The notes under the pieces: model-generated
Told to the model about the DNA's origin: nothing
What the model saw: the letters and a program-made list of their open reading frames with translations, nothing else
Database searches by the model: none
Program-made: the position numbers and the translations under genes
Assembly (NCBI GenBank): GCA_023374045.1
Contig: CM041779.1
Coordinates: 300,710,167 to 300,774,166 of the forward strand
Direction: 5' to 3'
Length of the DNA: 64,000 bases
Source: Limonium bicolor
Taxonomy: Eukaryota > Streptophyta > Magnoliopsida > Caryophyllales > Plumbaginaceae
Part shown: piece by piece, positions 14,601 through 51,045 of the stretch
Numbering within the stretch: the stretch's first letter is position 1
Layout of the letters: every line of letters begins with the position of its first letter

Positions 14601-15903
14601 TCACAAATTCTTCTTTTCTTTTCCAATCTCCTCCTTGGTCAAAATCGGCCAAGTTGGCCACTCACTTGCCAACCTCAAATTCAGCACCCAAATTGGGGAA
14701 TTAGGTACTAATTAATACACCTATGCTTATTAATCAAGCTAGAAGGCAAGAGAAAGTGCTTAGAGCACTAAAATGAAGATTTACCTTGAAACCCTAAGAT
14801 GGGCTTTTGGCCATGAATCAAAAAGAAGCTCTAACCCACCATTGGAGGCTTAGAGAATAGCTCAAAACATGAAAAATAAAAGGCATAAGAGAGGGCAAAA
14901 ATTGGCCATACTATGAGGTTGAGAAAAAAATGAGTTTTTCTTGGAGATTTTTACCTTAGGAGAAAGAGGAGACTCCAAGCTTCAATTTGATGCCATTTTC
15001 TCTTCAACTAGGCTAAACCCATGGACATGAAGTTCATACTTTTGGGATTTTGAAAAGAGGGAAAGGTAGAGCTTGATGAGAGGAAGAAGAATATGTGGTT
15101 AGTTTTTCATTTGGAGCTTTAATGAAGCTTGTACAAGTCAAAGAAGAGAGGAAGCCATGGAAGGTTGGTGGAGAAGCTTAAAATTGGCAGCTTGGGGAGG
15201 AAGAAGGAGAAAAATTGGCAGAGAAAAGAAAGAAAGGAAAGAGAAGAGGGAAAAAGAAATAAGAGATGGGAGATAGTAAAATGTCTTTTCTACTTTTCCA
15301 CTTTTTCTTTCTTTTCTTTTCTTACTAGTTACTTATAGAGAGAGTGGAGGCTGATTTAATCTCTAAAAACCGGCCCCCGCCATATATGTATGCTGGAGAG
15401 TTTTTTGCCTTTAATAGAAAACACTTGTTAATTTACCCGGTTTTAGAACAATTCACTAACCGAGCCCGTTTTCCGGATTTTTCTCGTTTCTTTAATTTTA
15501 ATGGTTCTCAAGCTTCCATTAATGTTTAATTATAGTTAGTTTTCTGACTATAATTTTACGGGTCCATTTGACCACTCAAAGTCACGTTTTAGGGTTTTCT
15601 TGAAAAAACGTGCGTTAAAGCTTTATTAGCGTTTTTAATTCATTTTATGGATCCGTTTTCTTTGAGAATTGTTCCCGTATATTAATTAGGCCTAACTATG
15701 CCTTAGGACTCCATCTAAGACCCTTGTCGAGGTCGTATTCCTCCCATGGTCACATAACGCTCATTTTTGCGTTTTTCGCTTTTTAAGCGTTTTCTCTTTT
15801 CTTTTGGATTTATTTTCTCTACCCAAAATTCTTAAGGACTTAATTATCCTTGTAAAATCATAATTACATAATTAATTAACACATAAAGGTTTGGGGTATT
15901 TCA
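11698..15903 (-). repeat. 3' LTR of element B (left copy)
   Basis: On the minus strand it runs TGAAATACCCC (15903) to GGTGTTGCA (11698), a one-base change from TACA. It holds the hairpin/acceptor motif at 12053-12110. The second half includes long A- and G-rich sense stretches (14750-15300) without a gene. A short frame at 15129-15338 is Lys/Glu-rich low-complexity sequence. Confidence 0.9.
13568..13755. repeat. GC-rich GGTCCGGGAC array in LTR of B
   Basis: Alternating (G)GTCCGGGACTTGGTCC and GGACC(C)AAGGTC units occur in both orientations, about 2.2 kb from the LTR 5' end. The right LTR carries the same array at 37725-37905, shortened by one unit. Confidence 0.75.
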
Positions 15904-19492: not shown

Positions 19493-19497
19493 ATAAC
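19493..19497. repeat. TSD of element C, left copy (ATAAC)
   Basis: ATAAC precedes the LTR and is repeated exactly at 34116-34120. Confidence 0.92.
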
Positions 19498-22400
19498 CGT
19501 AACACCCCAACCTCTAATCCTTCCATTATCCTCTAATCACTCCCATACTTACCTCACTCGCAGCGGAATACTTACTTACTCCCGGCGGGTGATACAACGC
19601 CGTTAACCATCCAATGGTTAACAAGGCTACTACTACTTACCGTGTCGGTCTGATGATTAGAATAAACCAAATACATACTACTTACCTTACAATACCAAAT
19701 ACTTACTTACATTTGATTACCGAGTATACGGAATATATGAATTACATTCCATGACTACTTCCCATAAATGAAGAGTTTATACATCCTCTCCTAACTATCC
19801 AATCAAGATTTCAATATCCAAAAGGTGTACCACATGGTACACCGGCTACTCAAAATGGCCTAGCCGTGTACAACTCGGTACACTATTCCAGTCCTACTGC
19901 TACATCCCAAAAAGAATCACATCACGTCCTTACCCTACCGTCACGCCTCGCGGGTACCTGTGGAGTAAAAACATTCCCCTAGGGGGTCAGCTTACGCTGC
20001 ATATGATAACCGCATACCCCGCGTGCTAGCGAGGGTACGCCAACTAATTGGTCGAGTACATGCGGTTCGTTTCATTCATACATACATACATGCTTTATAC
20101 ATTACAATACAATACATTCCATACACAAGGCATACATAATACATACAAGGAAGACAATTCAAGTCAACCATTCATACTTACCGAATACTCACGCATTACG
20201 GAGATACAATCTCCAATACATACAAAGGTCTTGTTAGCCTCATTACACACCCGGGTTAATCGGGTGTTCAATACTCTTTTACTCCGGGTCAATGACTTAC
20301 AATAGTCAAGACCAATACAAATACAATACTTACTTCTTACATACTTTACTTCCAGTCAAGTCGGTATGACCTCCGGGCAGGGATTACTACATCCCACCAC
20401 CGGGCTTTAGGTGGCCCACTAATCCAGGATGCTACCCATTCAAGGGGATTGCTCCAAGGAAAAGATTATAGCCAGGATTCGGATCCAACCTCTTGTGTCT
20501 TATCCTCACGCGTGGCCGAAACTATATCGGACTTCTACTCATTCCATTTTACTCATTACTCAAGTTAGGAGTTAGAATGTTAGGAATTAGTAGAAGTCGG
20601 TACTTCGTATCCATACATACATACATACAATACACAAGAACACAATACTTACACGTACTTCTCATATCCATTCATTCATTTCATGAATTATACAAACTAA
20701 TTGTTCAAGAAGATACAACAAGAACAAATAGTTCAAACACAATTAAGTGCAATATAAGTCCGATTCGTGCATTTATCTTATTGGTGATCACATAAGCACA
20801 CAAATCGGGGTAACCAAGTTAGGATACAGGGAATGAAGAAATCATACCGTTCACCGTCATATACGTACTACCGGGTTCCTTCGAGGATCAACTTTTTGAT
20901 TCCTATACATACATGAAATAGTATGATCAATGACCTATTATTGATCTAACTTACTCCTTCATTGATACTTTTAATATTTACTTACTACTTCATTACTTTC
21001 TTACTTGATTATAAAACCATTCTTTTCTTTACTACTTCTTAGACTTGTTTCCTTACTCATTTACTTACTTTCTTACCATTACTACATTACTACTTCATTA
21101 ATGGTGTATTACTACCTACATATGCTTATATGTGTATAGGCATATATATATATATATACATGATTACTATAATCATATAATAAAACATTTTTTTTTACTC
21201 GACCGACCCACCCTGGGTCGGACCCATGGGTCGGTCAGCTGCAGAGACTTCGATTACCGAAAATTCCAGTCCGGCCGACCCAGCCAGGGTCGGTCCATTG
21301 GGTCGGTCGGTTACAGAAGAAATCCCACTACAACTTTCCACTCGACCGACCCAGGTAGAGTCGGTCCCCTGGGTCGGTCTGATGCAGAAGCATTTCCGAC
21401 TACAAATTTCCACTCGACCGACCCAAGCAGGGTCGGTCCCCTGGGTCGGTCGGATGCAGAAACTTCCGAGTTTGCAGATTTTCGGGTCGACCGACCCTGC
21501 TAGGATCGGTCCTAGGGTCGGTCCAGCCCAGTACCCATTTTAATTACTTATTTTGAACTTCAAACTCTACTCAATTCACACCCAATCCTTTCCTACTCAT
21601 TCCCAACATGTTACCACTCATTTTGATGCTCTAAATCACCTTAATTCATCCCCAAACTTACTGCTCAAATTCCTACCAACTTAAACCAATTTTCATCATC
21701 TCAATCCAACACTTACATTGGTTTCTTCACACTAATGCTACAGATTTGGTTTCCACTATCATGCTACAGATTTTCACTCAACTTCTAACCTCATTACTTC
21801 CTCAACTAATGCTACTCTCCTAGCATCCAAAATGCATTACTCACAACTTAATTCCATCCCATTTACAACCTCATATCCAAATCTGTTACAATCTACTGAA
21901 CCACTCATTTTAACTTTCCAAAATCTGTTCCAAATGTATCTAAGTCCTCAAATTCCTAGATAAAATTCGACATAGTCTCCCCTTATAATTCTTACTTGCT
22001 CACACACCATTTCAGCTCACAATTTCCATTCTCACAACCTGTTTATACAATACATCATATCCACATCTCAACATCATTACAACACAATAAAATTCCTGCA
22101 CATACTCAATCAATACCCAATGTTTTCCCAAGCTTTTAAAACTCATTTAAAAACTTCAAAACTGTTACAATATCATTACTCATCATACTACAATATGCTT
22201 ACTACTCATTCCTCAATTCGTTACTCAGTTTACTACTCCAAAACTGTTACACTACTACATACAAAACAAGCTCAAGGTAAAGGTAATTACCTTGTGTTTC
22301 TAGTTTTCTTTTCTTTCTTTCTTGCCTTCTTCTTCCTTCTTTCCTCTCCTTTGTTCTTCCTCACACATTGCACAATACTACAACCACCATACCATACCAC

Positions 22401-23476
22401 ACACACCCATTTAACATTCATTTTTGCACTAACCCTAGAATTTAAATGTTTTAGGGTTTAGAGATGAGCATTACCTTCCAATGAAAATGATGTTCTTGAC
22501 TAGCAAGAGAACAATATTCCTAGCCCAACAAGAGAGCCAAAATCGGCTGGAACAAAGAGGGCCAAGAGTTCAAAAACTGAAAATCCTTATAATGCCAATG
22601 AGAGCTAGAAATGGAGGATTTTTGAAATTCTTTTTACCTCAAGATGATAAGGAGGTGAAGGTGCTTCTAATGGTGGACTTGAATCTTCAAATGGAGAATA
22701 CCCACTGAAATGAAAGTGGTCGTTTTCGATTTTTGAAAGGATGAAAATGTTCTCCTTTGCAAGAGGATTCCAACGGTATAATTTTTGTTGGATTTGGAGA
22801 AGGTTTGAGTGCTCAAAGAGAGGAGAGAAGTGAGGGGTTTTGTGAGTCTTCTCCTTTCTCCATGGATGTCGCAGGTGCAAGAGGAAAATAGAGAGAATAG
22901 AGAAAGAGAGGGAGATGGGTACGTGAGAGGAAGAGGGAAAAGTGAGGAGAGAGACTTATTTTACTTTTGTAATTCTCTCTTTTTCCGCTTTCCGTTTTAT
23001 AGTTTTGTCTCTCCTAGTGTATTAGGAGCTATTAAAATAATGAGAGAGGGAGGGGAAATCGGTCCATACCCCCCTCACACACAGATTTTTAATTTCTTTA
23101 TTTACAATTGGGACACAACAACTTGTTGTTATTGCAGTTTGTACCCCGTATGTTCTCGTTTTTCCGGTATTCGCTAACGGAGACCCGTTTTCCGAAATTT
23201 TCTTGTTTAATTAATTTTATTGGTTCCCAAGCTTCACTAATATTTATTAGTGACTATTTAGTTGACCAAAACTGTTACGAGTCTATTTGACCCGCTTAAA
23301 GTCACGTTTTCCCGGTTTCCTCGAAAAACGCGCGTTAAGGTTCGTTTATGCTTTTAACCCATTTTAAGGGTCCGTTTTCTTCGGGATTTGTTCCCTCGTA
23401 TTTATTTAAGTGTAATTAAGCCTTTAAAAATATAATTAGCCTAATTAATCACTGTTTTTAATTGCGGGGTATTTCA
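19498..23476 (-). repeat. 3' LTR of element C
   Basis: On the minus strand it runs TGAAATACCCCGC (23476) to GGGGTGTTACG (19498). The last base is changed from the CA of the other copy. It contains the hairpin/acceptor motif at 19954-19994 and a T-tract beside the GC array (21187-21195). No coding sequence. Confidence 0.94.
21199..21525. repeat. GACCGACCC palindromic array in 3' LTR of C
   Basis: About five units of CGACCGACCC-(n)-GGGTCGGTCC-(n)-GGGTCGGTC separated by about 35-40 bp of unique spacer ending GCAGAA. Each unit can fold as a hairpin. The array adjoins an A-run on the sense (minus) strand. The frames at 21132-21543 come from this repeat. Confidence 0.85.
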
Positions 23477-23985: not shown

Positions 23986-25405
23986 CTAGTCTACAAATAG
24001 ATTCGGGTACTTCGCCTTCATGGCGTCCTCTAATTCCCAAGTCGCTTCCTCGACATCGTGGTTAGACCACAAGACCTTCACCATTCGTACAGATTTATGG
24101 CGAGTGTCTCTTGTCTTTGTATCAAGGATTCACAGTGGAGTCTCGACATATCTCATCGTCGGCTCTAGGGACAAATGTTCGGGTTCTAATACATGAGAGG
24201 GATCGGCTATGTATTTCTTGAGTTGTGATACATGAAAGACATCATGAACACACCCCAATTCTTCAGGCAATGCTAGCCTATAAGCTACGGTTCCAATCCT
24301 CTCGGTGATGGTATACAGGCCTACAAATTTCGGGCTCAGCTTGCCCTTTTGGCCAAATCGAAAGCCGCCCTTCATAGGTGAGACACGCAAGAACACTTGG
24401 TCGCCCACGGCGAACTCAAGGTCGCGTCGTCGCACATCCGCATAGGATTTCTGTCTATCTTGGGCTACTTTCATATTTGCTCAGATTTCTTGTACCTCAG
24501 CTTGTACTTGTTCTAAATACTCCGGTCCTATGATGACCGCTTCACTTGACTCATCCCAACACAACGGGGTACGGCAAGGTCTACCATACAAAGCTTGGAA
24601 TGGCGACATCTTAATCGAAGCATGATAGCTATTGTTATACGAAAACTCGATAAGATGAAGCTTGTCAATCCAGCTCCCCTGGAAGTCTAAGGCACATGCC
24701 CTTAGCATATCCTCTAGTGTTTGGATGGTCCTTTCTGTCTGACCGTCGGTCTGTGGGTGGAAGGCGGTGCTAAGCTTCAACTCAGTACCAAGCGCTTCCT
24801 GTGTCGCTCTCCAGTATCTCGAAAGAAATCTGGTGTCGCGGTCAGATACTATAGTTTTCGGGACTCCGTGGTGTCGAATGATCTCCTTGTCGAATAGCTC
24901 CGCGAGCTTCGCCACCTTCCAGGTGTCCTTCATCGGTATGAATCGGGCAACCTTGGTGAGACGATCGACTACTACCCAGATCATGTTGAGTCCTTCCCTA
25001 GCAGGTGGGAGTCCAACAACAAAATCCATAGAGATATCGTGGAATTTCCACTCCGGAATGGCGATGGCATGGATTGCACCATTCCTCCCGGTCTTCGGTG
25101 CTCGAACTTCACCTTCTGGCATGTGAGACACCTCAGAACATACTCAGTCACGTCGGATTTCATTCCTGACCACCAGAAGTACCTTTTCATGTCTTTGTAC
25201 ATTTTAGAGGCTCCCGGATGGACATGCAATGTCGAACAATGTGACTCTCGCAGAATGCGATCCCTTAGCTCAGCATTGCTTCGGGGGACGCATAATCTGC
25301 CATTCAAACGGATCAGACCATCTTTATGCAGTTTGAAGTCGTGCTTTCGGCTCTCGAAGGTACCATCTGTGATTTTCTATCTGATCTCTGTGAAGTAAGG
25401 GTCGC
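23986..25405 (-). pseudogene. pol of C, 3' part: integrase and chromodomain, broken
   Basis: Integrase would insert the cDNA, and the chromodomain would direct it to chromatin. The zinc-binding HHCC domain is visible (SHCSTLHVHPG...CLTCQKVK, about 25260-25100). The catalytic core follows with D in SMDFVVGLP, D in VSDRDTRF and E in QTERTIQTLEDML. A C-terminal GDQVFLRVSPMKG motif is seen near 24400. After an in-frame TGA (24132-24130) the frame continues with VLWSNHD and EEATWELEDAM, a chromodomain-like end, and stops at 23988-23986. Breaks are TAG 25379-25377, a frameshift near 25070 (about 5 extra bases with CCAT doubled), TGA 24483-24481 and TGA 24132-24130. Both TGAs fit CGA to TGA changes. 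Confidence 0.93.
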
Positions 25406-27354
25406 TCAACTGAGCGTCTCGCACCTCGTCAACCAAGCTAGAAGAAGCGAGTGTGCTCGACGACTCAGGGCGTCGGCTACAACGTTTGCCTTCCCTTCTT
25501 TATATTGGAGGTTGCTGTCGTAGTCTAATAGGAACTCCATCCACCTCCTCTGTCTTAGATTCAGTTCTTTCTGGGTGAATACATACTGCAAACTTTTGTG
25601 GTCAGAGTAGATGGTGATGCTTACCCCATAGAGATAGTGTCGCCATATCTTCAAGGCGAAGACAATGGCTCCTAACTCTAAATCATGTGTCGGGTAATTC
25701 TCCTTATGCTTTTTCAGCTGGCAAGAAGCATAGGCTACTACCTTGCCATGCTGCATGAGTACGCATCCCATGCCCTTGCCCGATGCATCACAATACACCT
25801 CAAATCCCTCCGTGCCCTCTGGAAGTGTGAGAATTGGCGCTGAGGTCAATGAGTCTTTTAGTTTCTGGAAGGATACCTCGCACTCGTTTGTCCATACAAA
25901 CGGTGCATCTTTCTTCATCAATGACGTCATGGGCTTAGCGACTTTTGAGAAGTCCTTTACAAACCTCCGGTAATAACCGGCTAAACCAAGAAAGCTCTGG
26001 ATGTCGGTAACAGTCTTAGGTCTAGGCCATGATCGCACTGCTTCGATTTTGGATGGGTCTACTGAAATGCCCGCGCTCGAGATGACATGACCGAGGAATG
26101 ATACCTGATCTAGCCAAAACTCGCATTTGGAGAACTTCGCATACAGCTGGTTCTCGCGCAGTGTCTCAAGTACTCTTCTCAAGTGGTTTTCATGCTCTTC
26201 TGGTGACTTCGAATACACAAGGATGTCGTTGATGAATACTACTACTGAAGTGTCCAGCTGATCACTGAATAACCGATTCATTAGGTCCTTGAATTTGGCT
26301 GGTGCGTTAGACAAAACGAATGGCATCACCGTGAATTCGTAGTGGCCATATCTTGTTCGGAATGCTGTTTTCTCAATATCTTGCTCTTTGATGGCAATTT
26401 GGTGATATTCGGATCGGAGATCAATCTTAGAAAAGACCGAAGCTCCCTTCAACTGGTCGAACAGGTCGTCGATGCGTGGCAATGGATATTTGTTCTTTAC
26501 AGTGACCGCATTCAATTCGCGGTAGTCGATGCAGAGGCGGAGACTACCGTCCTTCTTCTTCACGAAGAGAACCGGTGCTCCCCAGGGTGATACACTCGGG
26601 CGTATAAACCCTTTGTCGAGTAGATCACGTAGCTGCTCTTTCATCTCTGTCATTTCTGCTGGTGCCATATGGTATGGAGCCCTAGCAATGGGACCAGTAC
26701 CCGGTACGAGGTCGATTTCAAACTCTACTGCTCTCTGTGGTGGCATATCAGGTAGCTCTTTCGGAAATACATCAGGGAATTCTGAGACTACTGCCACATC
26801 ATCACTGAATTCTGGATCTCTCTCTAGATCTTGCACATGGCATAAATACACTTCATGTCCTTTTCTGAGCTCCCGGTACATTGCCATAGCGGAGATGACT
26901 GTAGTTGAAGGCTCCCTTGGTCTCTGGCGGTATGAAACAGTGACCCTAGATGGACTCTTGAGCAGTAATCGGTGCTCGGCGCATAGGATCCGTCCTTTGT
27001 GCCGCTCCAACTAGTTCATTCCAATTATCAAGTCGAATCCCAATCCGTTGAATTCAATGAAGGAAATGGGAAACGCTTCACCTTTGATTTTAATGGAAGC
27101 TGTGTGGTAATACTTAGTACACTTTACCCGCTCCTTCGACGGAAGAGTAACCAGGAAATTGGGTAACTCATCTGCGTCTAGCCCCAACCTTGTAGCGAAT
27201 GATGGCAATACAAAGGTGTGAGAGGCGCCGGAGTCGAATAATACTGAGGCTTCGATGCCGTTTACTGGGAATGTTCCCGTTAGAATGGTGCCGCTCTTGC
27301 CGGCTTGTTCTTCGGTGAGGATGCTCAGGTTACCTTCGGTACCGAGTCCACAAC
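25406..27354 (-). pseudogene. pol of C, 5' part: protease, reverse transcriptase, RNase H, broken
   Basis: The exon starts at 27354 after acceptor AATAG and keeps the Gag frame. Protease has the DSGASHTF site (Asp codon 27235-27233). After IIGMN a TAG (27013-27011) replaces an expected Trp codon, then the frame is open for 534 codons. RT motifs are [27 protein letters not shown] and FINDILVYS. The first Asp of the FxDD catalytic pair is Asn (codon 26230-26228), which should abolish polymerisation. DLRSEYHQI and the V in MPFVL also depart from the usual Gly residues. RNase H has [24 protein letters not shown] and [10 protein letters not shown] frameshift near 25450 ends the frame at 25406, ahead of integrase. 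Confidence 0.95.
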
Positions 27355-28424
27355 CTATTGATTCATGAGATGATAAGTAAAGATGGTGGAACGCAAGTGG
27401 AATTTAATAACCAACACTGCTTTTATTGAATAACCAACCATCATACATATTGTGTCTCTAATACACGTTACTACTGGATTACATGCTACTACAAGATTAA
27501 TACTTTCTAAAGGTAAGGTTCAGGCGTCCTGGTTTCATGTGGGTGGCATTGATTATTCCCGGTGGTGCCGTATTTAACTTGATCTTCTGGATCCCGTGAT
27601 ACAGCAACCTTGACTTTCCACCCATGATTAGGACATCTCCTGATCTCAATACCAATTTCTCTGCGAGGTCTACACGCTTCTGCTGGCTATACAAAAATAC
27701 GGCGTCGTCACCAATGGACCAAGACACTACGGGCACTCCTAGTTCAAGAGATTCCACTGTCTCATCCTTATCTTGGTGCAAGCCAAGTCGTCCTTCTTTC
27801 TCATAGAAGTTGATGATACATAGATCTGCTTCAAGTGCAGGGATTGGTTCATCTTCATACTGTTATGCAACCTCTACAGCTTGTGTACCAAGCGTTTGGA
27901 ATTATGAGGGTATTGCTGGAGGTGTGGCTCCGTCTCCTGCTCGCGTTGTTTGGTATGTCTTGGTATAAGGGTTCCAATCCTTTCCCAAGCACATCATTTT
28001 CAGCTTCATTGTAGCTCCACCGGGGAATTCGGGTGTATAAAATCCTCCTGGACCCATTCCTAACTCGTTGCATCATCGGATGATTGAAACTTGTGCTTCG
28101 GGTGTCAGGTATCCTTTTAATAAGATCATACCTGGGCGGATGACCTGACACTGATTGTTGTTGAAGTGGTGAGTGGCGATGTCGGTCTCTTCATGAGGTG
28201 AGTTCGAAGGTATCGGGTAACAAATAAGGAATTTCCCTAAGGTGGTAATCACATCTAGAGTGAGTTCTAGGCTTACTAATTCATTTCATGCTTAATACGT
28301 GCTTCCATGTTACTTACTCATGCTCAATTTCATACTTCAAGTACTTACGCTTTCATACTCCCATTCATACAATTACTTTAATACTTAGTCATGCTCTTCA
28401 AGGATTAAAGGTTACGGTAGTTAC
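27355..28424 (-). other. Intron 3 of C gag-pro-pol (1070 bp), contains the AlkB frame
   Basis: The donor is CCGG/GTAACT (first intron base 28424) and the acceptor ATCAATAG/GTTG (last base 27355). Splicing joins a split codon (G/GT) and continues in frame from the zinc-knuckle exon into protease. Without splicing, Gag would stop at 28405, a few codons into the intron. Splice sites are inferred from consensus and frame, not from transcripts. Confidence 0.7.
27497..28285 (-). pseudogene. AlkB-like 2-oxoglutarate/Fe(II) dioxygenase carried by element C
   Basis: AlkB proteins remove methyl groups from nucleic-acid bases by oxidation, using Fe(II) and 2-oxoglutarate. The minus-strand frame shows RPGMILLKGYL (about 28130), GPGGFYTPEF (about 28055), MKLKMMCLGKDW and CIINFYEKEGRLGLHQDKDE. 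The last contains the HxD iron ligands (His 27778-27776, Asp 27772-27770). LRSGDVLIMGGKSRLLYHG follows, with the third ligand His 27598-27596. The end is PGRLNLTFRKY with the RxxxxxR 2-oxoglutarate motif (Arg 27526-27524 and 27508-27506), then stop 27499-27497. All catalytic residues are present. In-frame stops are TGA 28075-28073, TAA 27904-27902 and TAA 27865-27863, each explicable by one C-to-T change. The frame is open upstream to 28285 with no clear ATG, suggesting entry by splicing. It resembles plant ALKBH1-type proteins more than viral AlkB domains. This is from motif memory, not a search. Confidence 0.88.
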
Positions 28425-29893
28425 CCGGGCCGGACTTAGTCCCGGTCCCATCACGGTCGATGATGTGTAAGGCCGGCTGCCTCTGCGGTGCGCCCTTCTG
28501 CGGACCTCGGGATCCCTGTCCCTGTGAGGTATGCTGGGCATGAGCATCGCCAGTTGCAGCTTCCTTGCCCTCACGCTGCTTGTAGCCCTGATAGTTGCCC
28601 TTGGGCTTAGAGTTTTCTGGGCATGCATTGGCACGGTGCCCCGGCTTCTGGCAAGTGTAGCAGTGGATCTCCCTTCCTTGGCAATCTGTGTCGGGATGAT
28701 CCTTATTGCAGTTTCGGCATATGTAGCTGCGGCCATCAGATTGGTTCTTGCCTTGACCAAATCCAGAACCTATAGCTTCCAAGTTAGCAAGGTTCAGTAT
28801 ACTTACAATACTCTATATACATACAAATTCACAAGTGTACTAATTCGATTTCGGTTCTTACCCCTGTAGGGCTGAGACCTCAGTGGCTTCGCTGCCACTG
28901 GTGCGGTGTAGGCAATCTGTAACGGTTCAGCTGCCTTGCCCTTCTCAGTATGGGCACCGCCGTCTCCGGAAGTGTTCTTCTGATGGGAATGCTTCCCCTT
29001 CCTCTTCTTCCAAGGTTTGGATTGGTTTTGATCATCGGAGGGGTTACCTTTGCCGCTCACCTTGGGCTTCAGCGCTTGCTCCTCATCTCTTAGCTGGCAG
29101 GTGATCCCAACTCGAGATGCAGTGTGGTAACACTCCTGAATTACTTAGGCATTAGGTTACACTTACATACGGGAATACTAATTTACATTACTCATGGCTT
29201 TTAAGGGTTCAGCTTGTTTACCTGAAGGGAGGTAAACCGTGTGAAGCCCATGCCATACCGGAGTCGATGGCTCAATCCGCCATAGAAGCGGTCGACCAAG
29301 ACTTGGCCGGTATACCCAAGGTCGGGTAGAAGTCGGAGAAGAGAGGTGAAGGTGCGGTAATATTCATCAACCGTCATCTTCTCGGTCATTTTTAGTGCAT
29401 CGAGCTCAAGCCTTTTCTTGGTCTTGACATGCTCGGGGTAGTACTTAGATCGGAGGAGAGAGGTGAATGCTTCCCATCCGAATGCTGGGTCTGCAACGTG
29501 CTCGGCCTTAACAAGCTTCCACCAGTCCATAGCCGCGTCTTTGAGGTAGTACGCAGCTATCCTCACTCGAACTCCAGCGGGAGTCTCAAGTGTCTCAAAG
29601 GCCGTCTCCATCTCGGAGAGATAAGCCTCGAGTTTGGCGGGGTCGCTCTCGCCTCTAAAGCATGGAGGTCGAAGGTCGGCGACTGCTTTTACCCAATTTG
29701 TTTCTCGGGGATAAGGTGGGTTGGGCTGCTGCTGTTGCTGCTGCTGTTGTTGAGTTTGTTGTGTTTGCTGTACAGTAGTGATTACATCCGGTAGCATCTG
29801 TGCTACCGTGGCGGCGACGATTTCAGCTATCGTCTGCGCGCTTGGTCTGTCACTAGTCCCTCCTCTGGGATGACCTGGACCTCGTCCTGACAT
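28425..29893 (-). CDS. Gag of element C, three exons (430 codons up to the protease junction)
   Basis: Gag forms the virus-like particle and packages the RNA. Exon 1 (29893-29222) starts MSGRGPGHPRGG about 225 bp after the LTR. It has a Gln-rich run near residue 45 and the retrotransposon Gag core (DAAMDWWKLV, SKYYPEHVKTKKRLELDALK, MTVDEYYRTFTSLL). Exon 2 (29135-28862) continues with ECYHTASRVG and a Lys-rich, probably nucleic-acid-binding linker. Exon 3 (28769-28425) holds two zinc knuckles, CRNCNKDHPDTDC and CYTCQKPGHRANAC. The introns at 29221-29136 and 28861-28770 are 86 and 92 bp, start GT and end AG, and keep the frame. Intron retention would truncate Gag. The joined frame has no internal stop, in contrast to pol and AlkB. 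Entry into pol requires removal of intron 3. Confidence 0.85.
28770..28861 (-). other. Intron 2 of C gag (92 bp)
   Basis: Donor AGGG/GTAAGA, acceptor GCTATAG/GTTCT. Phase 1, splitting a Gly codon. Element A has an intron-like acceptor (AATAG/GC) at the equivalent place before its knuckle exons. Confidence 0.7.
29136..29221 (-). other. Intron 1 of C gag (86 bp)
   Basis: Donor CTTCAG/GTAAAC, acceptor TAATTCAG/GAGTG, phase 0. A CTAAT-type branch candidate lies about 20 bases before the acceptor. Reading through gives a stop seven codons into the intron. Confidence 0.7.
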
Positions 29894-30086: not shown

Positions 30087-30114
30087 ATCAGAGCGAGACT
30101 TCACTCTGATACCA
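30087..30114 (-). promoter_or_regulatory. Primer binding site and overlapping stem-loop of element C
   Basis: The minus strand reads TGGTATCAGAG (30114 downward), matching initiator tRNA-Met, five bases after the LTR end at 30120. ATCAGAGTGA pairs with TCGCTCTGAT across a four-base loop, so half of the PBS is in a stem. The leader 30086-29894 holds no further motif I recognise. Confidence 0.85.
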
Positions 30115-30119
30115 CTTTT

Positions 30120-33100
30120 TGTAACACCCCAACCGCTAATCCTTCCATTATCCTCTAATCACTCCCATACTTACCTCACTCGCAGCGGAATACTCACTTA
30201 CTCCCGGCGGGTGATACAACGCCGTTAACCATCCAATGGTTAACAAGGCTACTACTACTTACCGTGTCGGTCTGATGATTAGAATAAACCAAATACATAC
30301 TTACCTTACAATACCAAATACTTACTTACATTTGATTACCGAGTATACGGAATATATGAATTACATTCCATGACTACTTCCCATAAATGAAGAGTTTATA
30401 CATCCTCTCCTTACTATCCAATCAAGATTTCAATATCCAAAAGGTGTACCACATGGTACACAGGCTACTCAAAACGGCCTAACCGTGTACAACTCGGTAC
30501 ACTATTCCAGTCCTACTACTACATCCCAAAAAGAATCACATCACGTCCTTACCCTACCGTCGCGCCTCGCGGGTACCTGTGGAGTAAAAACATTCCCTCT
30601 AGGGGGTCAGCTTACGCTGCATATGATAACCGCATACCCCGCGTGCTAGCGAGGGTACGCCAACTAATTGGTCGAGTACATGCGGTTCGTTTCATTCATA
30701 CATACATACATGCTTTATACAATACAATACAATACATTCCATACACAAGGCATACATACATACAATACATACATACAATACATACAAGGAAGACAATTCA
30801 AGTCAACCATTCATACTTACCGAATACTCACTGCATTACGGAGATACAATCCTCCAATACATACAAAGGTCTTGTTAGCCTCATTACACACCCGGGTTAA
30901 TCGGGTGTTCAATACTCTTTTACTCCGGGTGAATGACTTACAATAGTCAAGACCAATACAAATACAATACTTACTTCTTACATACTTTACTTCCAGTCAA
31001 GTCGGTATGACCTCCGGGCAGGGATTACTACATCCCACCACCGGGCTTTAAGGTGGCCCACTAATCCAGGATGCTACCCATTCAAGGGGATTGGTCCAAG
31101 GAAAAGATTATAGCCAGGATTCGGATCCAACCTCTTGTGTCTCCTTATCCTCACGCGTGGCCGAAACTATATCGGACTTCTACTCATTCCATTTTACTCA
31201 TTACTCAAGTTAGGAGTTAGAATGTTAGGAATTAGTAGAAGTCGGTACTTCGTATCCATACATACATACAATACACAAGAACACAATACTTACACGTACT
31301 TCTCATTTCCATTCATTCATTTCATGAATTATACAAACTAATTGTTCAAGAAGATACAACAAGAACAAATAGTTCAAACACAATTAAGTGCAATATAAGT
31401 CCGATTCGTGCATTTATCTTATTGGTGATCACATAAGCACACAAATCGGGGTAACCAAGTTAGGATACAGGGCATGAAGAAATCATACCGTTCACCGTCG
31501 TATACGTACTACCGGGTTCCTTCGAGGATCAACTATTTGATTCCTATACATACATGAAGTAGTATGATCAATGACCTATTATTGATCTAACTTACTCCTT
31601 CATTGATACTTTTAATATTTACTTACTACTTCATTAATTTCTTACTTGATTATAAAACCATTCTTTTCTTTACTACTTCTTAGACTTGTTTCCTTACTCA
31701 TTTACTTACTTTCTTACCATTACTACATTACTACTTCATTAATGGTGTATTACTACCTACATATGCTTATATGTGTATAGGCATATATATATGTACATGA
31801 TTACTATAATCATATAATAAAACATTTTTTTTTTGACTCGACCGACCCACCCTGGGTCGGACCCATGGGTCGGTCAACTACAGAGACTTCGATTACCAAA
31901 AATTCCAGTCCGGCCGACCCAGCCAGGGTCGGTCCATTGGGTCGGTCGGTTACAGAAGAAATCCCACTACAAATTTCCACTCGACCGACCCAGGCAGAGT
32001 CGGTCCCCTGGGTCGGTCTGATGCAGAAGCACTTCCGACTACAAATTTCTACTCGACCGACCCAAGCAGGGTCGGTCCCCTGGGTCGGTCGGATGCAGAA
32101 ACTTCCGAGTTTGCAGATTTTCGGGTCGACCGACCCTGCTAGGATCGGTCCTAGGGTCGGTCCAGCCCAGTACCCATTTTAATTACTTATTTTGAACTTC
32201 AAACTCTACTCAATTCACACCCAATCCTTTCCTACTCATTCCCAACATGTTACCACTCATTTTGATGCTCTAAATCACCTTAATTCATCTCCCAAACTTA
32301 CTACTCAATTCCTACACAACTTACACCGATTTTCATCATCTCAATCCAACACTTACATTGGTTTTCTTCACACTAATGCTACAGATTTTGGTTTCCACTA
32401 TCATGCTACAGATTTTTCACTCAACTTCTAACCTCCATTACTTCCTCAACTAATGCTACTCCTAGCATCCAAAATACATTACTCACAACTTATTTCCATC
32501 CCATTTACAACCTCATATCCAAATCTGTTACAAGCTACTGAACCACTCATTTTAACTTTCCAAAATCTGTTCCAAATGTATCTAAGTCCTCAAATTCCTA
32601 GATAAAATTCGACATAGTCTCCCCTATAATTCTTACTTGCTCACACACCATTTCAGCTCACAATTTCCCATTCTCACAACCTGTTTATACAATACATCAT
32701 ATCCACATCTCAACATCACTACAACACAATAAAACAATGTTTTCCCAAGCTTTTAAAACTCATTTAAAAACTTCAAAACTGTTACAATCTCATTACTCAT
32801 CATACTACAATATGCTTACTACTCATTCCTCAATTCGTTACTCATTTTACTACTCCAAAACTGTTACACTACCACATACAAAAAAAGCTCAAGGTAAAGG
32901 TAATTACCTTGTGTTTCTAGTTTTTCTTTTGTTTCTTGCCTTCTTCTTCCTTCTTTCCTTCTCCTTTGTTCTTCCTCACACAATGCACAATACTACAACC
33001 ACCATACCAATACACACTACCATTTAACATTCATTTTTGCACTAACCCTAGAATTTAAATGTTTTAGGGTTTAGAGATGAGTATTACCTTCCAATGAATG

Positions 33101-34115
33101 AATGAAGTTCTTGACTAGCAAGAGAACAATATTCCTAGCCCAACAAGAGAGCCAAAATCGGCTGGAACAAAGAGGGCCAAGAGTTCAAAAACTGAAAATC
33201 CTTATAATGCTAATGAGAGCTAGAAATGGAGGATTTTCGAAATTCTTTTTACCTCAAGATGATAAGGAGGTGAAGGTGCTTCTAATGGTGGACTTGAATC
33301 TTCAAATGGAGAATACCCACCGAAATGAAAGTGGTTGTTTTCGATTTTTGAAAGGATGAAAATGTTCTCCTTTGCAAGAGGATTCCAACTGTATAATTTT
33401 TGTTGGATTTGGAGAAGGTTTGAGTGCTCAAAGAGAGGAGAGAAGTGAGGGGTTTTGTGAGTCTTCTCCTTTCTCCATGGATGTCGCAGGTGCAAGAGGA
33501 AAATAGAGAGAATAGAGAAAGAGAGGGAGATGGGTACGTGAGAGGAAGAGGGAAAAGTGAGGAGAGAGACTTATTTTTACTTTTGTAATTTCTCTCTTTT
33601 TCCTCTTTCCTAGTTTATAGTTTTTTGTCTTCTAGTGTATTAGGAGCTATTAAATAATGAGAGAGGGAGGGGAAATCGGTCCATACCTACCCCCCTCACA
33701 CACAGATTTTAATTCTTTATTTACACATTGGGCATAAAAACTTGTTGTTATTGCAGTTGTACCCCGTATGTCTCGTTTTTTTCCGGTATTGTCTCTAACG
33801 GAGACCCGTTTCCCCTTCCGGAATTTTCTCTCGTTTAATTAATTTTATTGGTTCCCAAGCTTTCACTAATATTTATTAGTGACTATTTAGTTGACCAAAA
33901 CTGTTACGAGTCTATTTGACCCACTTAAAGTCACGTTTTTCCCCCGGTTTTCCTTAAAAAAACCTCTGTTAAGGTTCGTTTATATTATGCTTTATAACCC
34001 ATTTTAAGGTCCGTTTTCTTCGTGATTTGTTCCCTCATATTTATTTAAGTGTAATTAAGCCTTTCAAAATATAATTAGCCTAATTAATCACTATTTTTAA
34101 TTGCGGGGTATTTCA
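30120..34115 (-). repeat. 5' LTR of element C
   Basis: On the minus strand it runs TGAAATACCCC (34115) to GGGGTGTTACA (30120). The hairpin/acceptor motif lies at 30573-30614. The segment 33580-34035 shows many one- to five-base homopolymer or tandem insertions relative to the left copy. Confidence 0.95.
31838..32165. repeat. GACCGACCC palindromic array in 5' LTR of C
   Basis: It has the same five-unit organisation as the left LTR copy. A T-run of 10-11 bases (31824-31834) sits just left of it, which is an A-run on the sense strand. Confidence 0.85.
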
Positions 34116-34120
34116 ATAAC
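34116..34120. repeat. TSD of element C, right copy (ATAAC)
   Basis: Exact match to 19493-19497. Confidence 0.92.
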
Positions 34121-35857
34121 TCCTATTCTACGTGTTCTCAACTTCTGTTGTTCATGGTAATCGGTTGTTCTAGTGTGAATTTGCACTGCTGACCATAGTA
34201 TGGAGTCAACTACTTCCCGTGTTCCATACTCTACTCGTATACATATGTGGGGCACCCTACGGATACATTACTACACTCGTAGAGTCCGTCACACGCCTAT
34301 GTGAAGTATTCTGTTGTCAACTCCTCTTATATTGTCCTATGATACATGCATTCACTGCTTCCCAAACTTAATCAACGGAAATTTGTCCACTGTCTGTATT
34401 TAGTACGAACTTGTTTCCTTCCCTCGGGTTAATACCCTCGGTTATTGAATAGTCATCATGTTGTTCGAAAGTGAACTAGGTATAACTTACCTACTGTGTG
34501 GCTCTGAGGCCGGTGTAGGTCTTCTAGTTTTGCTTTAAAGAAAATCTAAAGTTTAGGAGATATTTGGGCATAAAAGAAGGTTTGAAATAGATATGAGTTT
34601 GGAATAAAATTTGGTTGTGAAAACGGTTTGAAATAAATCTGAGTTTAGAAGAAGGAGTTAGATCTTAAAAGACTTTGTGGTATTTAGAAAGTCTCCACGC
34701 CTTGACAGAGTCTAGCTTCTCACTGACTGGTATATCCTCAAATACAATGGTTAGGCCTCTAAGCCCTTCCAGGTTCCATTCTTCAAATTCTTGGATTCGT
34801 GATCCCATAATTACCTCATTCGCTGTCATGGTACTTTACTACGTACTTCTCTGTTGTTAAAGTCTTCCCGAATAGACCCGTTATAACAACACTTGCCGTG
34901 GCAAGTGCGCCATGCTGGCTAGCTATCAGTTCAACACATACCGGTTGCGGTATTGTTTCCACCCGCACCGTATTCGGTAGCCTTACTGGCTCTACCTTTG
35001 ATTTCCAGCCAGTTAATCAACTTATTGTGCAACTTTTCATTGATCTTTACATGGTAGTCATGATTCAAGGTGCTTCTCTCCTCTTGGAGGCCCCTATGCA
35101 CTTATTGTTCATTCCCACACGTTTACCGTGGTTACTGAGTCTTGACTCTTGTTTAGGAACTACCTCTGCAGTCCTATCGGAGTATATCCCGTAGATGTGC
35201 TCATGATTGTCTGAGTACTGTTAATTAGGTATTGTACTCTCCTCAGCCTTGTAAGTTTGGAGTTCACCCACTCTCGACTTGTTCCTTAGTCGACTAATAC
35301 ACCGTTGGTGGTATTGTCTCACTATTGAGGTCCGTAGACGTGTGTCTCGGGTTTCGCTACTTTTCCATTTTTTCCATTTGTCACACAGGTCATGCTGTCC
35401 TTCATGCTATCCAAGCTGGGTTCTCTCGACTACTAAGCATGTTGACCCATGCTGCCAGAGAATTCGTTCTCCTTAGGTGTAGGATTTGCAATCTCCCTCT
35501 ATTGAGTGCGGGTAATATCATTCAACATGAACCGTCACCGGGATTTCCGGTTCTTAGAATCTACCGTGCGACATGTTCCTTGTTCTTACAGAAACACTTG
35601 ATAACAGCCAGATCGGGTTTTCCCGAGTAAGAGATAACCTTCATCTCTCTAGCGTTCTTTCTCGAGTTATAATACGGGGGTTGTAAAGGGTGGGTATAGA
35701 TATTGTACGTATCCTATACACATGGGGAATGCCTAACTAGCGTATCTCTCACGCTATCACTAAACCCTGAACCCAAAGTTTTAAACTCCTAACTCGGAAT
35801 TTCCTAATCTTGGTATTTCCAGTCATCAGAGTGATACTTCGGTCTGATGCCACCTTT
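34121..35857 (-). other. Leader and 5' internal region of element B, non-coding
   Basis: The minus strand starts AAAAGGTGGCATCAGAC, a mutated Met-tRNA primer site (about 35854-35843). Several leader blocks match element G at 59599-59812 and 63711-63780, for example GATAGCGTGAGAGATACGCTAGT and GATCTGGCTGTTAT. No sense-strand frame of note. The plus-strand frames at 35279-35630 are antisense. Confidence 0.7.
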
Positions 35858-38800
35858 TGTAACACCCCAACTAAATAACACAACACTTAACAAATGATTG
35901 CAGCAGAATCACAACCCAACATTAAAATTTATCATTGGTGTTACACGCCGTTAGCCACCCACGTGGCTAGCAAGGCTAATACTAACACATTGAATCGGTC
36001 TGATGGACCAGATTCCGGAGCACTTATACATTACAAGACCGTTCCATTTCTCAACAAACAAATACATTTATATCCAAACTGCACCAAGTATTTACAAACT
36101 AATGCCGACAATAGTTCGGTCTTACTAAACTTACAAATGCATAAGTAACTAAATAACTATCCATGCATAAACAGTTACCACGTCCTACTCTCGAACAACT
36201 GCCAGCTCTATTGTACCTGAAAGGAAAAAGGGTGGCCCCCAAGGGGCTCAACACCTTTGCTGGTATGGCAATCGTGCAGCCCGCATACTACCAGGCCACA
36301 TACAACTAATTGTCGTGTGAGCATGCAATTGATTTTATTTAGAGCATGCAATAAATACTATAAACATATATCATGCTAATAAATCACACATATCCAATCA
36401 ATAGGATACAACCAAGAAGGTTAACATATCAACACTTGTTAGGTCAAATTATTGTGTTCCTTGACCCTGGAGGGTTTCTACCTTAATGGAACTAAATTCT
36501 TATTAGACAACACTTACCAATTTGATCGGGTTACAACTAATTACTTCTTATATTAATATGGGGTTTTCGGTGATCAACATACACAACATAACAACACACA
36601 TCACGTAATAACCTATACACAACATAAAACCGTTCATCTTAGAGAACATACACTTTACTTAAGATGTGTCGGATAGAATATAGGTCCGAACACACCGTAC
36701 ACATTTACTTTACTTAGATGCGTCGACCATAATATAGGCCCGATCACACCATACACATATCCCCCTAGCCCCGATAATAGTCAAGGTAGGAGAGCCAGCT
36801 ATTGGCTCGTGGGAGGTTAGATTCCAAGAAGGAAAACAACTGAACAAGGGAGAGAGTTGAACCAAATATATATATCAACTCCCATGCATACGCGTGCGAC
36901 CGGACACCCGGATTCCTCACCCCCCAATTATACGTTAGTTAGAAGTTCCCTTATGGAACATATCACATCATGACACCACATGGTGTTACAAACTTAGTTA
37001 AACACACAAGGGAGGTAACATACCATTCATCACACATGAACAACAACAATCGTTATATAATGACATACTCAAAAGGGCAACACACATCACACACACAACA
37101 CCTTATACAAGTAACGCACCGATAGCCGTAGTTATAACGTTCCCGGAGGTTGGGACGTTTGGTACGAATCCCGATCTCTTATGTGATCCTAGAGTCGGTT
37201 AGCTACAGTTTAACACATATTCGAGGTTAAATGGTATCGGAACTAAATAGGCCACATAAATGAATTACAGTAAACTCATTTCATGCTTTTATCTTATAAG
37301 GTGGAAAACATTCAGAAAAACACATTGGCATACAAGCCGGTGTAACCCGGTAGGGCACAGGTTGCAAGTAAACCATACCTTACACCATTGGTTACTCTAC
37401 CGTGTCCCCGAGGATTTACTCTTAACGCGTCACCTCACGCTCCTCAGGTAGTTTCCGAACAACTGGTATTATTTCAAACGTTTTTATTAACATCATGATC
37501 ATACGGTATGTAAGCTACTATCACTCTTGTACTTAACTCGTTTCCCCGTTATACTTAGTTTTAATCTTGTCAATTTAAGTCCTTACTTCTCACTCATTTC
37601 TAACACTTGTTTATGCCTCTTAGGACCTTTAAAAGTCACCCTAACAAGGCCTTAACAACATCTAAAACCATTAGCCATCAATCCCCCATCTATAGAAGCC
37701 TTTAAAACACATTTTAGACAAATTTTGGTCTGGTCCGGGACTTGGTCTGGACCCAAGGTCCCGGACCAACACTGAAACGCACTCTCGGCTCATTTTTCTA
37801 CCTTGTCCAGGACTTGGTCCTGGACCACCTGCTGTCTCAACTCTTGGGGCATTTTTAAGGCCGGTCCGGGACTTGGTCCGCCCCCTAAGTCCTGGATCCT
37901 ACTAAAAAACTGCTAAAATTGTTTTTCCAGCCCTTAAACTATCCTTAATCCACACCTAATCATTCCAAAATCTTTCCACATGTTTCCTACATGTTTAAAC
38001 ACCCTAAAACACTCCTTAAACACTCCTAAATCAATGGTCAAATTCACTACCCAATTCTTGTTCAAATTCACAAATATCAATTTCCACATTTTGCACTTTG
38101 CACACTAATCACTTCTAACTTCCTCTTGATGGTTTCCAACCTCCTACCTCCTCACCAAATCTTTATTGAGCATAACCAATTCATTCCTAGACATTTGCAT
38201 TAGCTATAGCCAAGTCCATCCTCCATTACCAAGGTTTGCACTCTAACTCTTTTCCTAGGAATTCTAAGATCTTCACAAGTCATTTTGCTACAGATTTTTA
38301 TCTCTCTCAAACTCATTCTCCATTTACCATTCCAAGGTTAACAAACATCTCTACTCAACCTAATACACACCCAACTTCTCCAATTCATTAAGTCACCTAA
38401 TAACACCCAATTTCTACACCAATTTTGCCATAACTTCCCCATAAACCTAACATATCCACATTAATCAATTTTCACCTTTTTCAATCCTAAACTAGCCACA
38501 CCCTTACAAGGATCCTGCCAGCACACAATTAATTCACCAACCTCCTCCAAATCTCATAACGCATAATATAACACAATAACTCAAAAGCTCAGCACATAAG
38601 TCCTTAATTCATACATCAATTCACAATTTTCTCTTAACTTTCACTAAGAATATTACTAGCATACAATTTGGTTTCATTCCTTTAATTACCCATCCCAAGC
38701 TCTTAAACAATCAAAATAAGCATTATGGTGAGTTTCTTACCTTAAGCTCACAAATTCTTCTTTTCTTTTCCAATCTCCTCCTTCTCTCATTCTTGGTCAA

Positions 38801-40056
38801 AATCGGCCAAGTTGGCCACTCACTTTCCAACCTCAAATTCAGCACCCAAATGGGGAATTAGGTACTAATTAATACACCTATGCTTATTAATCAAGCTAGA
38901 AGGCAAGAGAAAGTGCTTAGAGCACAAAAATGAAGATTTACCTTGAAACCCTAAGATGGGCATTTGGTCATGAATCAAAGGGAAGCTCTAACCCCCCATT
39001 GGAGGCTTTGAGAATAGCTCAAAACAAGAAAAAGAACAAGGCATAAGAGAGGGCAAAAATTGGCCACACTAAGAGGTGGAGAAAAAATGAGTTTTTCTTG
39101 AAGATTTTTACCTTAGGAGAAAGAGGAGACTCCAAACTTCAATTTGATGCCATTTTCTCTTCAAATGGGCTAAACCCATGGAGATGAAGTTCATCCTTTT
39201 GGGATTTTAAAAAAAGGGAAAGTTAGAGCTTGATGAGAGGAAAACAAATATGTGGTTAGTTTTTCATTTGGAGCTTTAATGAAGCTTGTACAAGTCAAAA
39301 AAGAGAGGAATCCATGGAAGGTTGGTGGAGAAGCTTAAAATCGGCAGCTTGGGGAGGAAGAAGGAGCAAAATCGGAATAAAGAAGAAAGAGAGGAAAGAG
39401 AAGAGGGAAAAAGAAATAAGGGTGGAGAGAGAGTAAAGTACCCTTTCTACTTTTCCACTTTTTCTTTCTTTTCTTACTAGTTACTTATTGAGAGATGGGA
39501 GGCTGATTTAATCTCTAAAATCTGGCCCCCACCATATATGTATGCTGGAGTGTTTTTCGCCTTTTACAGAAAACGCTCGTAAATTTACCCGGTTTTAGCA
39601 CAATTCACTAACCGGGCCCGTTTTCCGGATTTTTCTCGTTTCTTTAATTTTAATGGTTCTCAATCTTCCTCTAATGTTTAATTATAGTTATTTGGTTGAC
39701 TATAATTTTTACGGGTCCATTTTACCACTCAAAGTCACGTTTTCGGGTTTTCTCGAAAAAACGGGCGCTAAAGCTTTATTAGCGTTTTTAATTCATTTTA
39801 TGGATCCGCTTTCTTCAAGAATTGTTCCCGTAAATTAATTAGGCCTAACTAAGCCTTAGGAATCCATCTAAGACCCTTGTCGAGGTCGTATTCCTCCCAT
39901 GGTCACATAACGCTCATTTTTCCGTTTTTTGCTTTTTAAGCGTTTTCTCTTTTCTTTTGGATTTATTTTCTCTACCCAAAGTTCTTAAGGACTTAATTAG
40001 CCTTAGAAAATCATAATTACATAATTAATTAACACATAAAGGTTTGGGGTATTACA
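35858..40056 (-). repeat. 5' LTR of element B (right copy)
   Basis: On the minus strand it runs TGTAATACCCC (40056) to GGGGTGTTACA (35858). The hairpin/acceptor motif lies at 36213-36270 and the GC array at 37725-37905. It differs from the left copy by many substitutions and small indels. Confidence 0.92.
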
Positions 40057-43381: not shown

Positions 43382-44399
43382 TGTAACACCCCAACTCATC
43401 CAAACGTGGTTATCGCATAACTTACTAACATATATATCAACATCGCAGCGGAATCATAATACAATACCCATCAGCTTGCTATGGTATGAAATACGAGAAT
43501 ATACCGAACTTAAATATTTACCACCGTTTATCCAAAAATACCAACCGAGTTTTAAGTATCTCTAACACCAACATAGTTTACAATAACTTCTAATATCAAT
43601 AGACAGGTGTACATACAAAACCCGTACTCAAAATAAATCCTGTCCTAAGTCTACCCGCTCCTACTCTCGAGGTTGGTCTTCTGAGGCCTCTTTCCTGCAA
43701 AATTAATATGGATGCCCCGAGGGGCTCAGCACCTTTGCTAGTACGATAATCTTATAGCACCCAAGCTAACGGGGCTACGACGACTACTTTGTCGTAAACA
43801 TGCGGTTGATTATTAATACAACATTAATAAGAAGTACAATAAACATCACACCACATATGAACAAATCATAGTTCATGCGCAATGAACGACTTAAAAGCGT
43901 CCCTTAAGTAAGTGAGTAAGCTTTTAACTCTTTAGGTCAGGATTTCTCTTATTCTCTCTTATCTCAACGTACCAACCTTTCTTTAAATAGAATTGGTTAT
44001 TTCTTAACTCAATGTTTATCTTTGTCGGGTCATAAGTAACCCTAGCCAATGAGCTATTAACTCCATTTGTTAAATAAATAGTATATCTAAAATTTGGGAT
44101 TTAGGAAATCCCACCACACCATCTTAATCTGGCCTCCCACCTTGAACTGTAATCCAAGGTGGTCGAGTCTATAAGTCGACTCTAGGCAACAAGTCAAAGA
44201 CGAGTCTCAAACGGAAGTCGATCTGATACAGATACCAACTCCTTTTTCCTTAACATGCATGAGCGGAGTCAGTCCCGGATTCCTCACTCCCCTCAAGTTC
44301 CAGTTAGTAGAAGTCTTAAAGACGAAGGTGTTAGTTAAACGTTTTTCAGGTATTAACCAACCAACAATTAGGGAGTGTATTCTTATCTCATACCACAGC
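43382..44399 (-). repeat. LTR fragment D, R-U5 part
   Basis: On the plus strand it starts TGTAACACCCC at 43382, the complement of an LTR 3' end. It has the GCAGCGGAA block and the hairpin/acceptor motif (43691-43745) shared with B and G. It is interrupted by E at 44400 and resumes at 52802. Confidence 0.7.
44395..44399. repeat. TSD of element E, left copy (ACAGC)
   Basis: Repeated exactly at 52797-52801. Confidence 0.9.
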
Positions 44400-51030: not shown

Positions 51031-51045
51031 TGACGGGGGGCAATC
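51031..51045 (+). other. Polypurine tract of element E
   Basis: TGACGGGGGGCAATC immediately before the 3' LTR start. Confidence 0.85.

Follow-up and report, generated by a model that had tools for sequence, protein, structure and literature searches.

The locus considered here raises the question of why a gene for a nucleic-acid demethylase of the AlkB type should lie inside an LTR retrotransposon, and whether it is a working part of the element. The window, a 64,000-nucleotide stretch of the Limonium bicolor genome, carries the reading frame on its minus strand (28285-27497), which is the element's own sense strand, as an earlier note written from the letters alone had proposed; the opposite (plus) strand gives a stop-rich reading. 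Searched with its in-frame stops entered as X, the frame matches the Pfam family PF13532 (2OG-FeII_Oxy_2) with an E-value of 6.5e-43 and 147.7 bits, where the cut-off is 31.2, and this is the sole Pfam family that it gives. The AlkB hallmarks claimed in the same note, namely HxD, the distal His, RxxxxxR, and the NFY and SGDVL..GGKSR blocks, are each present in the window frame, and by profile, iron triad (HxD...H) and RxxxxxR the encoded protein is a member of the AlkB family. The constrained part of this 2OG-Fe(II) dioxygenase gene extends from Met37 of the predicted AlkB exon to the stop (27497-28129, minus strand; 210 codons plus the stop). The window copy is nevertheless dead, with three in-frame stops at codons 71, 128, and 141 of the 28285-27497 frame.

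To judge from its closest relatives, the element AlkB is of the ALKBH1 type, rather than of the ALKBH5, ALKBH9, or ALKBH10 types. Its best solved relative is 5xeg, which is OsALKBH1 by title (E 7.3e-71, 241.6 bits), followed by E. coli AlkB (1.2e-23, 86.9 bits) and animal ALKBH1 (1.3e-11, 47.4 bits), and no ALKBH5-named entry occurs among the 21 PDB matches at E 0.001. A protein search with AlkB returned 1697 matches, and among the best 120 of these four proteins (P0001-P0004) stand apart, with 57-71% identity as compared to 45-55% for the other 116; the P0002 alignment covers 98% of the 28285-27497 frame. In a quick, midpoint-rooted tree of 48 rows, for which 40 of the 116 other listed matches were used, the window copy, three other copies of the element, and P0001-P0004 form one clade with an SH-aLRT of 100, while the 40 rows outside this clade are plant proteins where named. 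This tree provides no test of ALKBH1 versus ALKBH5 because none of its rows is known as ALKBH5. The four close relatives may be element-borne or may represent a cellular paralogue; among the best 120 of 7977 matches of an RT protein search, none lies on a contig with the length of one of theirs. Searches by tblastn of subsets of viral and genome contigs gave no relative. Structure was predicted for P0001 in place of the broken window copy (pLDDT 92.7), and this model of a relative has the AlkB fold, with OsALKBH1 nearest (TM 0.92-0.94), E. coli AlkB next (0.81-0.83), and ALKBH5 chains at 0.57.

The element that surrounds the frame is ~14.6 kb in length and lies on the minus strand, as do all of its features given below. 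Its ~4-kb LTRs, which are 95.3% identical, occupy 30120-34115 (5' LTR, TGAAATACC...GTTACA) and 19498-23476 (3' LTR), and they delimit a single insertion because the target-site duplication GTTAT flanks both of them (34116-34120 on the 5' side and 19493-19497 on the 3' side). AlkB is located within this one insertion, bearing out the claim that it is carried inside an LTR retrotransposon. A putative primer binding site, TGGTATCAGAG, which we take to be of the initiator-Met tRNA type, is present at 30104-30114. The AlkB frame also has the position between gag and protease that had been ascribed to it, lying between a zinc-knuckle ORF (28782-28408) and the protease (27352-27012), both of which are confirmed by Pfam. 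The pol exon starts with the aspartic protease (27012-27354, PF08284) and continues with reverse transcriptase and RNase H (25406-27010; PF00078, PF17917, and PF17919), an integrase core (24481-25131; PF00665, 28.1 bits, under the cut-off of 32.6), and a Tf2-1-like, SH3-like integrase C-terminal domain (24130-24474, PF24626). With two LTRs, a target-site duplication, a putative primer binding site, gag, and the order PR-RT-RH-IN, this is a Ty3/gypsy LTR retrotransposon. We call it chromovirus-like because of the SH3 domain and a weak chromodomain match (PF00385) that ends the integrase frame of another copy, L011, at E 0.0015 and 18.8 bits, under the cut-off of 25.1; no chromodomain match was obtained with Pfam in the window copy's own integrase frame. 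The element presumably resembles Tekay.

Several other repeats are visible in the window. An older element appears to enclose the AlkB element (LTR pair at 11695-15900 and 35855-40053, 92.2% identical), and short tandem repeats occur within both LTRs of the AlkB element (21197-21523 and 31839-32162). A related Ty3-like element at 4256-2944 (minus strand), in which gag, knuckle, and protease are continuous without AlkB, offers a natural no-cargo comparison. There is also an LTR-like direct repeat pair at 44399-46130 and 51045-52795, with pieces that are 94% and 89% identical, and direct repeats of ~1.6 kb with 80% identity are found at 55386-56949 and 59882-61454.

Whether AlkB is peculiar to this insertion was addressed by searching the 2.92-Gb assembly with the window AlkB DNA (789 bp). 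This gave 6014 first-look candidates, which are unscored and not verified copies, so that no copy number follows from them, and the best 40 were scored. These 40 matches, the window included, span positions 1-789 of the query in 39 cases and 2-789 in one, and the 39 other than the window have 95-96% identity. In all 20 other copies that were fetched with 10 kb each, the element order is LTR-gag-AlkB-pol-LTR or, in detail, partial 5' LTR, gag, knuckle, AlkB, protease, RT, integrase, and partial 3' LTR, except that one copy (L014) lacks the integrase end and anything after it and another (L018) has only a short piece of 5' LTR, preceded by an inverted LTR-like stretch. Because these copies had been picked by AlkB, a second search was performed with protease/RT DNA, which yielded 5209 first-look candidates, the best 40 again being scored. 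AlkB is present in 29 of the 29 copies examined from this list, comprising nine known AlkB carriers (the window among them) and 20 of the remaining 31, with the other 11 of the 40 outside the count; all 20 newly checked copies, from which AlkB-sized pieces were fetched, carry the gene, one with an internal gap. Both lists consist of best matches and are not random samples, but the copy number of the family is apparently very high. AlkB is therefore found at many loci with the same element order and not at this locus only, and the 40 scored matches, the constant order in 20 of 20 copies, and the 29 of 29 protease/RT-chosen copies rule out a chance capture at one locus. A separate insertion of AlkB with its own duplication is likewise ruled out, the sole 5-bp target-site duplication lying outside the LTRs and the order being the same in all 20 copies.

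Evidence that the family has had a use for the enzyme comes from the pattern of substitution among copies. Amino-acid-changing (N) and synonymous (S) changes at variable sites were classed by the number of copies sharing each change, the rationale being that changes common to at least two copies should mostly date from replicating ancestors, and were compared with a neutral expectation in which the same base changes were placed randomly on matching sites, with a real copy as reference. For Met37 to the stop in 60 copies, shared changes number 21 N, one shared stop counted among them, and 34 S, where 36.7 and 18.3 are expected (ratio 0.31, P<0.0002). For AlkB in 40 copies the values are 20 N and 30 S, with 34.1 and 15.9 expected (ratio 0.31, P<0.0005), and for Met37 to the stop in the 20 protease/RT-chosen copies plus the reference L011, which is also on the protease/RT-chosen list, they are 7 N and 15 S (ratio 0.25, P 0.0025). 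When the same test is applied to 21 copies, AlkB (0.30) proves to be less constrained than RT-RH (0.13), integrase (0.17), and gag exon 1 (0.18), and a control LTR stretch read as a frame gives 1.00. Wrong AlkB frames exhibit no significant depletion, with ratios of 0.97-2.77 over all classes. Moreover, of the seven active-site residues Asn, Tyr, His, Asp, His, Arg, and Arg, the sixth (Arg) is retained in 59 of the 60 copies and each of the others in all 60. The shared substitutions thus indicate purifying selection on AlkB, and the mutation pattern suggests that the family has needed a working enzyme; this is the outcome that the earlier note had named, for a dN/dS-type comparison with intact catalytic residues, as support for a functional cargo. 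Sorting the changes into old and young in this way is not clean, because private (single-copy) changes, which were expected to be near neutral, are depleted too, both in AlkB (0.51 in 60 copies, 0.39 in the protease/RT-chosen set, and 0.65 with P 0.065 in a further analysis) and in RT-RH (0.56).

The state of the frames in individual copies has to be read with the choice of copies in mind. AlkB is open from Met37 to the stop in 27 of 40 AlkB-chosen copies, a figure inflated by that choice because in the protease/RT-chosen set just 3 of 20 are open (a count that excludes the nine previously known of the 29). Disrupted frames are not peculiar to AlkB, because Pol is open throughout in none of 21 copies, with a longest frame of 744 codons. 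Many one-base indels disrupt the gag, pol, and AlkB frames in loci L009-L067, and these may reflect genuine decay or mistakes in the assembly. Low divergence taken alone proves nothing about AlkB, because the non-coding gap between AlkB and protease (27496-27355, minus strand) is even less diverged (0.010 versus 0.016) and is the lowest of nine segments in 20 AlkB-chosen copies; this low gap divergence may reflect copy choice, conversion, or hidden function.

How the gene might be expressed is suggested by a predicted exon-intron structure. Gag exon 1 (29222-29893; PF03732 and PF19259) would be followed by predicted intron 1 (29136-29221; GT-AG, phase 0, AT 0.65), predicted exon 2 (28862-29135), predicted intron 2 (28770-28861; GT-AG, phase 1), and predicted exon 3 with the CCHC zinc knuckle (28425-28769; PF00098). 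A third predicted intron (27355-28424), with its donor at 28424 and a protease acceptor that ends at 27355 in phase, contains AlkB, which would place the whole gene inside a gag-pol intron. AlkB itself is then a predicted alternative terminal exon (27497-28236) that ends in TAA; its acceptor AG (28238-28237) would keep the phase of gag exon 3. This acceptor AG is present in 20 of 21 copies and in 39 of 40 in a larger set, and all other predicted GT and AG sites, those of intron 1 included, are present in 21 of 21, but conservation of GT-AG alone lends weak support because mean copy divergence is just 1-5%. The predicted introns have an AT content of 0.65-0.67, as compared to 0.42-0.54 for the exons. 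In addition, shared changes reveal constraint on exon 2, exon 3, and the protease in their predicted frames (ratios 0.24, 0.12, and 0.03), exon 2 giving 2.84 and 1.41 in its other two frames, and intron 3 is without constraint in any of three frames (0.83-1.72). Within the predicted AlkB exon, codons 1-36 are unconstrained in 60 copies (N 8, S 3, ratio 0.80) and differ from the rest of the exon with a Fisher P of 0.048 (0.067 in 40 copies), so that a conserved Gag-AlkB junction at 28236 is disfavoured and translation of the working protein may begin at Met37 (28129). A second in-phase AG at Met37 (CAG/GTATG) is invariant in 21 aligned copies. When searched apart against RT-bearing database proteins, the gag exons give weak matches that are roughly collinear, and a protein search with gag exon 1 found none at E 0.001 among 660 candidates. 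In some database relatives a single protein spans gag, knuckle, and RT, which decides nothing on introns because such entries may be spliced. Plant LTR elements are described in PMC12786077 as generally intronless, with Ogre and EVADE as exceptions.

What can be read directly from the DNA is the position of the gene, its spread over many copies, its constraint, and its conserved active site, and on this footing we regard AlkB as a real, selected, multi-copy cargo of a plant Ty3/gypsy family. The explanation that we favor, and consider fairly probable, is that a lineage of chromovirus-like Ty3/gypsy elements captured a plant ALKBH1-type dioxygenase and was then amplified with it under purifying selection, the product being an intron-lodged adenine eraser that aids copying. 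Splicing of the gag exon to the protease would yield Gag-Pol, and unspliced or alternatively spliced RNA would yield Gag together with the AlkB protein, which would either be fused to Gag or be translated from its own Met. The enzyme would act on methylated adenines, whether m6A in genomic RNA of the element, 6mA in its single-stranded cDNA, or those in host nucleic acid that marks the element for repression, and removal of these methyl groups would help to make new copies. Because the enzyme is of the ALKBH1 type, its substrate could be 6mA in DNA, m6A in RNA, or something else, and a Nicotiana ALKBH1-like protein is reported in PMC12736721 to be an m6A RNA demethylase. According to PMC12786077, which cites Fan et al. 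2023, m6A on ONSEN RNA restrains ONSEN in Arabidopsis and AtALKBH9B releases it; the statement in the earlier note that a host ALKBH protein promotes mobilisation of an Arabidopsis LTR element is correct in that AtALKBH9B does so for ONSEN (cited in PMC12786077 and PMC9289625). The proposal that a captured AlkB has been kept as family cargo stands, given its presence in every examined copy, the purifying selection, and the retained catalytic residues, and the role suggested for it, that of an eraser which would rid element RNA or cDNA of methylated adenines, appears to be the likeliest.

Other roles have been weighed against this one. Reversal of alkylation damage in element RNA or cDNA, rather than erasure of regulatory methyl marks, is one alternative; repair has been proposed for the AlkB domains of plant RNA viruses (cited in PMC9289625), and E. 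coli AlkB, a repair enzyme, is the second fold match of P0001 after OsALKBH1 (TM 0.81-0.83); the nearest relative by sequence and by fold is, however, plant ALKBH1, and we think repair unlikely. In rice, ALKBH1 reportedly impairs the binding of PRC2 and thereby keeps the H3K4me3/H3K27me3 ratio high (PMC10469495). The element AlkB belongs to the same subfamily and might similarly act on host chromatin to keep element loci expressed. Silencing of plant LTR elements relies mainly on other marks, however, and we consider a chromatin effector distinctly improbable. That AlkB is a functionless fragment of a host gene, transduced once and hitch-hiking through amplification, agrees with the three stops of the window copy, with closure from Met37 in 17 of 20 protease/RT-chosen copies, and with host-gene transduction by plant LTR elements as reported in PMC7264820, but it is very improbable and seems largely refuted, since a passenger should resemble the LTR control (1.00) whereas shared changes in AlkB are strongly depleted in amino-acid changes, each of the seven active-site residues is unbroken in 59-60 of 60 copies, and Pol, too, is not open throughout in any of 21 copies.

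A broader picture may also be drawn, which we hold tentatively as a possibility worth serious thought. This would be the second independent capture of AlkB by a plant Ty3/gypsy element, after the one in Phalaenopsis discussed below, here of the ALKBH1 type and within a gag-pol intron, where splicing would determine how much demethylase is made relative to Gag and Gag-Pol; the clade that includes P0001-P0004 would represent a group of AlkB-carrying retrotransposons that has long persisted in several plants, and adenine methylation would be a recurrent barrier that elements overcome with an eraser of their own. Two unrelated plant retrotransposon lineages with erasers from different AlkB subfamilies would suggest that adenine methylation of element RNA or cDNA is a real form of host control, and one worth paying to evade. 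It would also be unusual for the cargo of an LTR element, here an enzyme gene, to be housed and regulated within a gag-pol intron. With its copy number and selection signal, the family lends itself to finding out which of the methyl marks is important.

Among known systems, AlkB domains also occur on mobile genetic elements in plant RNA viruses of the Alphaflexiviridae, Betaflexiviridae, and Closteroviridae (PMC9289625), but these carriers, likened here by description alone, are RNA viruses and not retroelements. Ogre and EVADE are reported to have functional introns that yield subgenomic RNAs (PMC12786077); the present element differs in having three predicted introns in gag and gag-pol, the third of which would hold an entire enzyme gene. 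Plant ALKBH1 (OsALKBH1, PDB 5xeg/5xoi) is both the best sequence match and, for P0001, the best fold match, yet the element copies and P0001-P0004 form a clade separate from it, and in the alignment they are without much of the N-terminus of cellular ALKBH1 and have one shorter loop. The statement in the earlier note that no LTR retrotransposon with this cargo was known has to be withdrawn, because Alvarado-Marchena et al. 2022 (PMC9289625) described Ty3/gypsy elements of Phalaenopsis with a 2-ODD ORF2 (Gypsy_Pa_2799). Within the open-licence PMC literature this is the one AlkB-carrying LTR element that we found, an earlier description elsewhere being possible, and in a screen of 121 angiosperm genomes, consensuses with the 2-ODD domain were reported for two Phalaenopsis species but for none of the other plants (PMC9289625). 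Both families are high-copy plant Ty3/gypsy elements with an extra AlkB-type dioxygenase in which HxD...H and RxxxxxR are intact. The Phalaenopsis element, however, is 25.5 kb long with 6.4-kb LTRs, as compared to 14.6 kb and ~4 kb; its RT is nested in Tat beside Ogre, a lineage marked by a second RNase H and a tRNA-Arg primer binding site, whereas the present element, with its integrase SH3 domain and the weak chromodomain match in copy L011, is called chromovirus-like; its primer binding site is antisense to tRNA-Arg, in contrast to the PBS-like TGGTATCAGAG; and its Gag-Pol is a single ORF with AlkB as a separate 565-aa ORF2, whereas here AlkB lies between zinc knuckle and protease amid predicted introns. 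Furthermore, the Phalaenopsis AlkB is of the ALKBH5 type and demethylates m6A in vitro, while the present AlkB is of the ALKBH1 type and is known from its sequence. Membership of the Phalaenopsis 2-ODD family is ruled out by the different AlkB type, gene position, and element. The present family, which differs in its AlkB subfamily, in the size of the element and in where the gene sits, and apparently also in lineage, appears to be a new variant, and its capture of AlkB was probably independent of that in Phalaenopsis.
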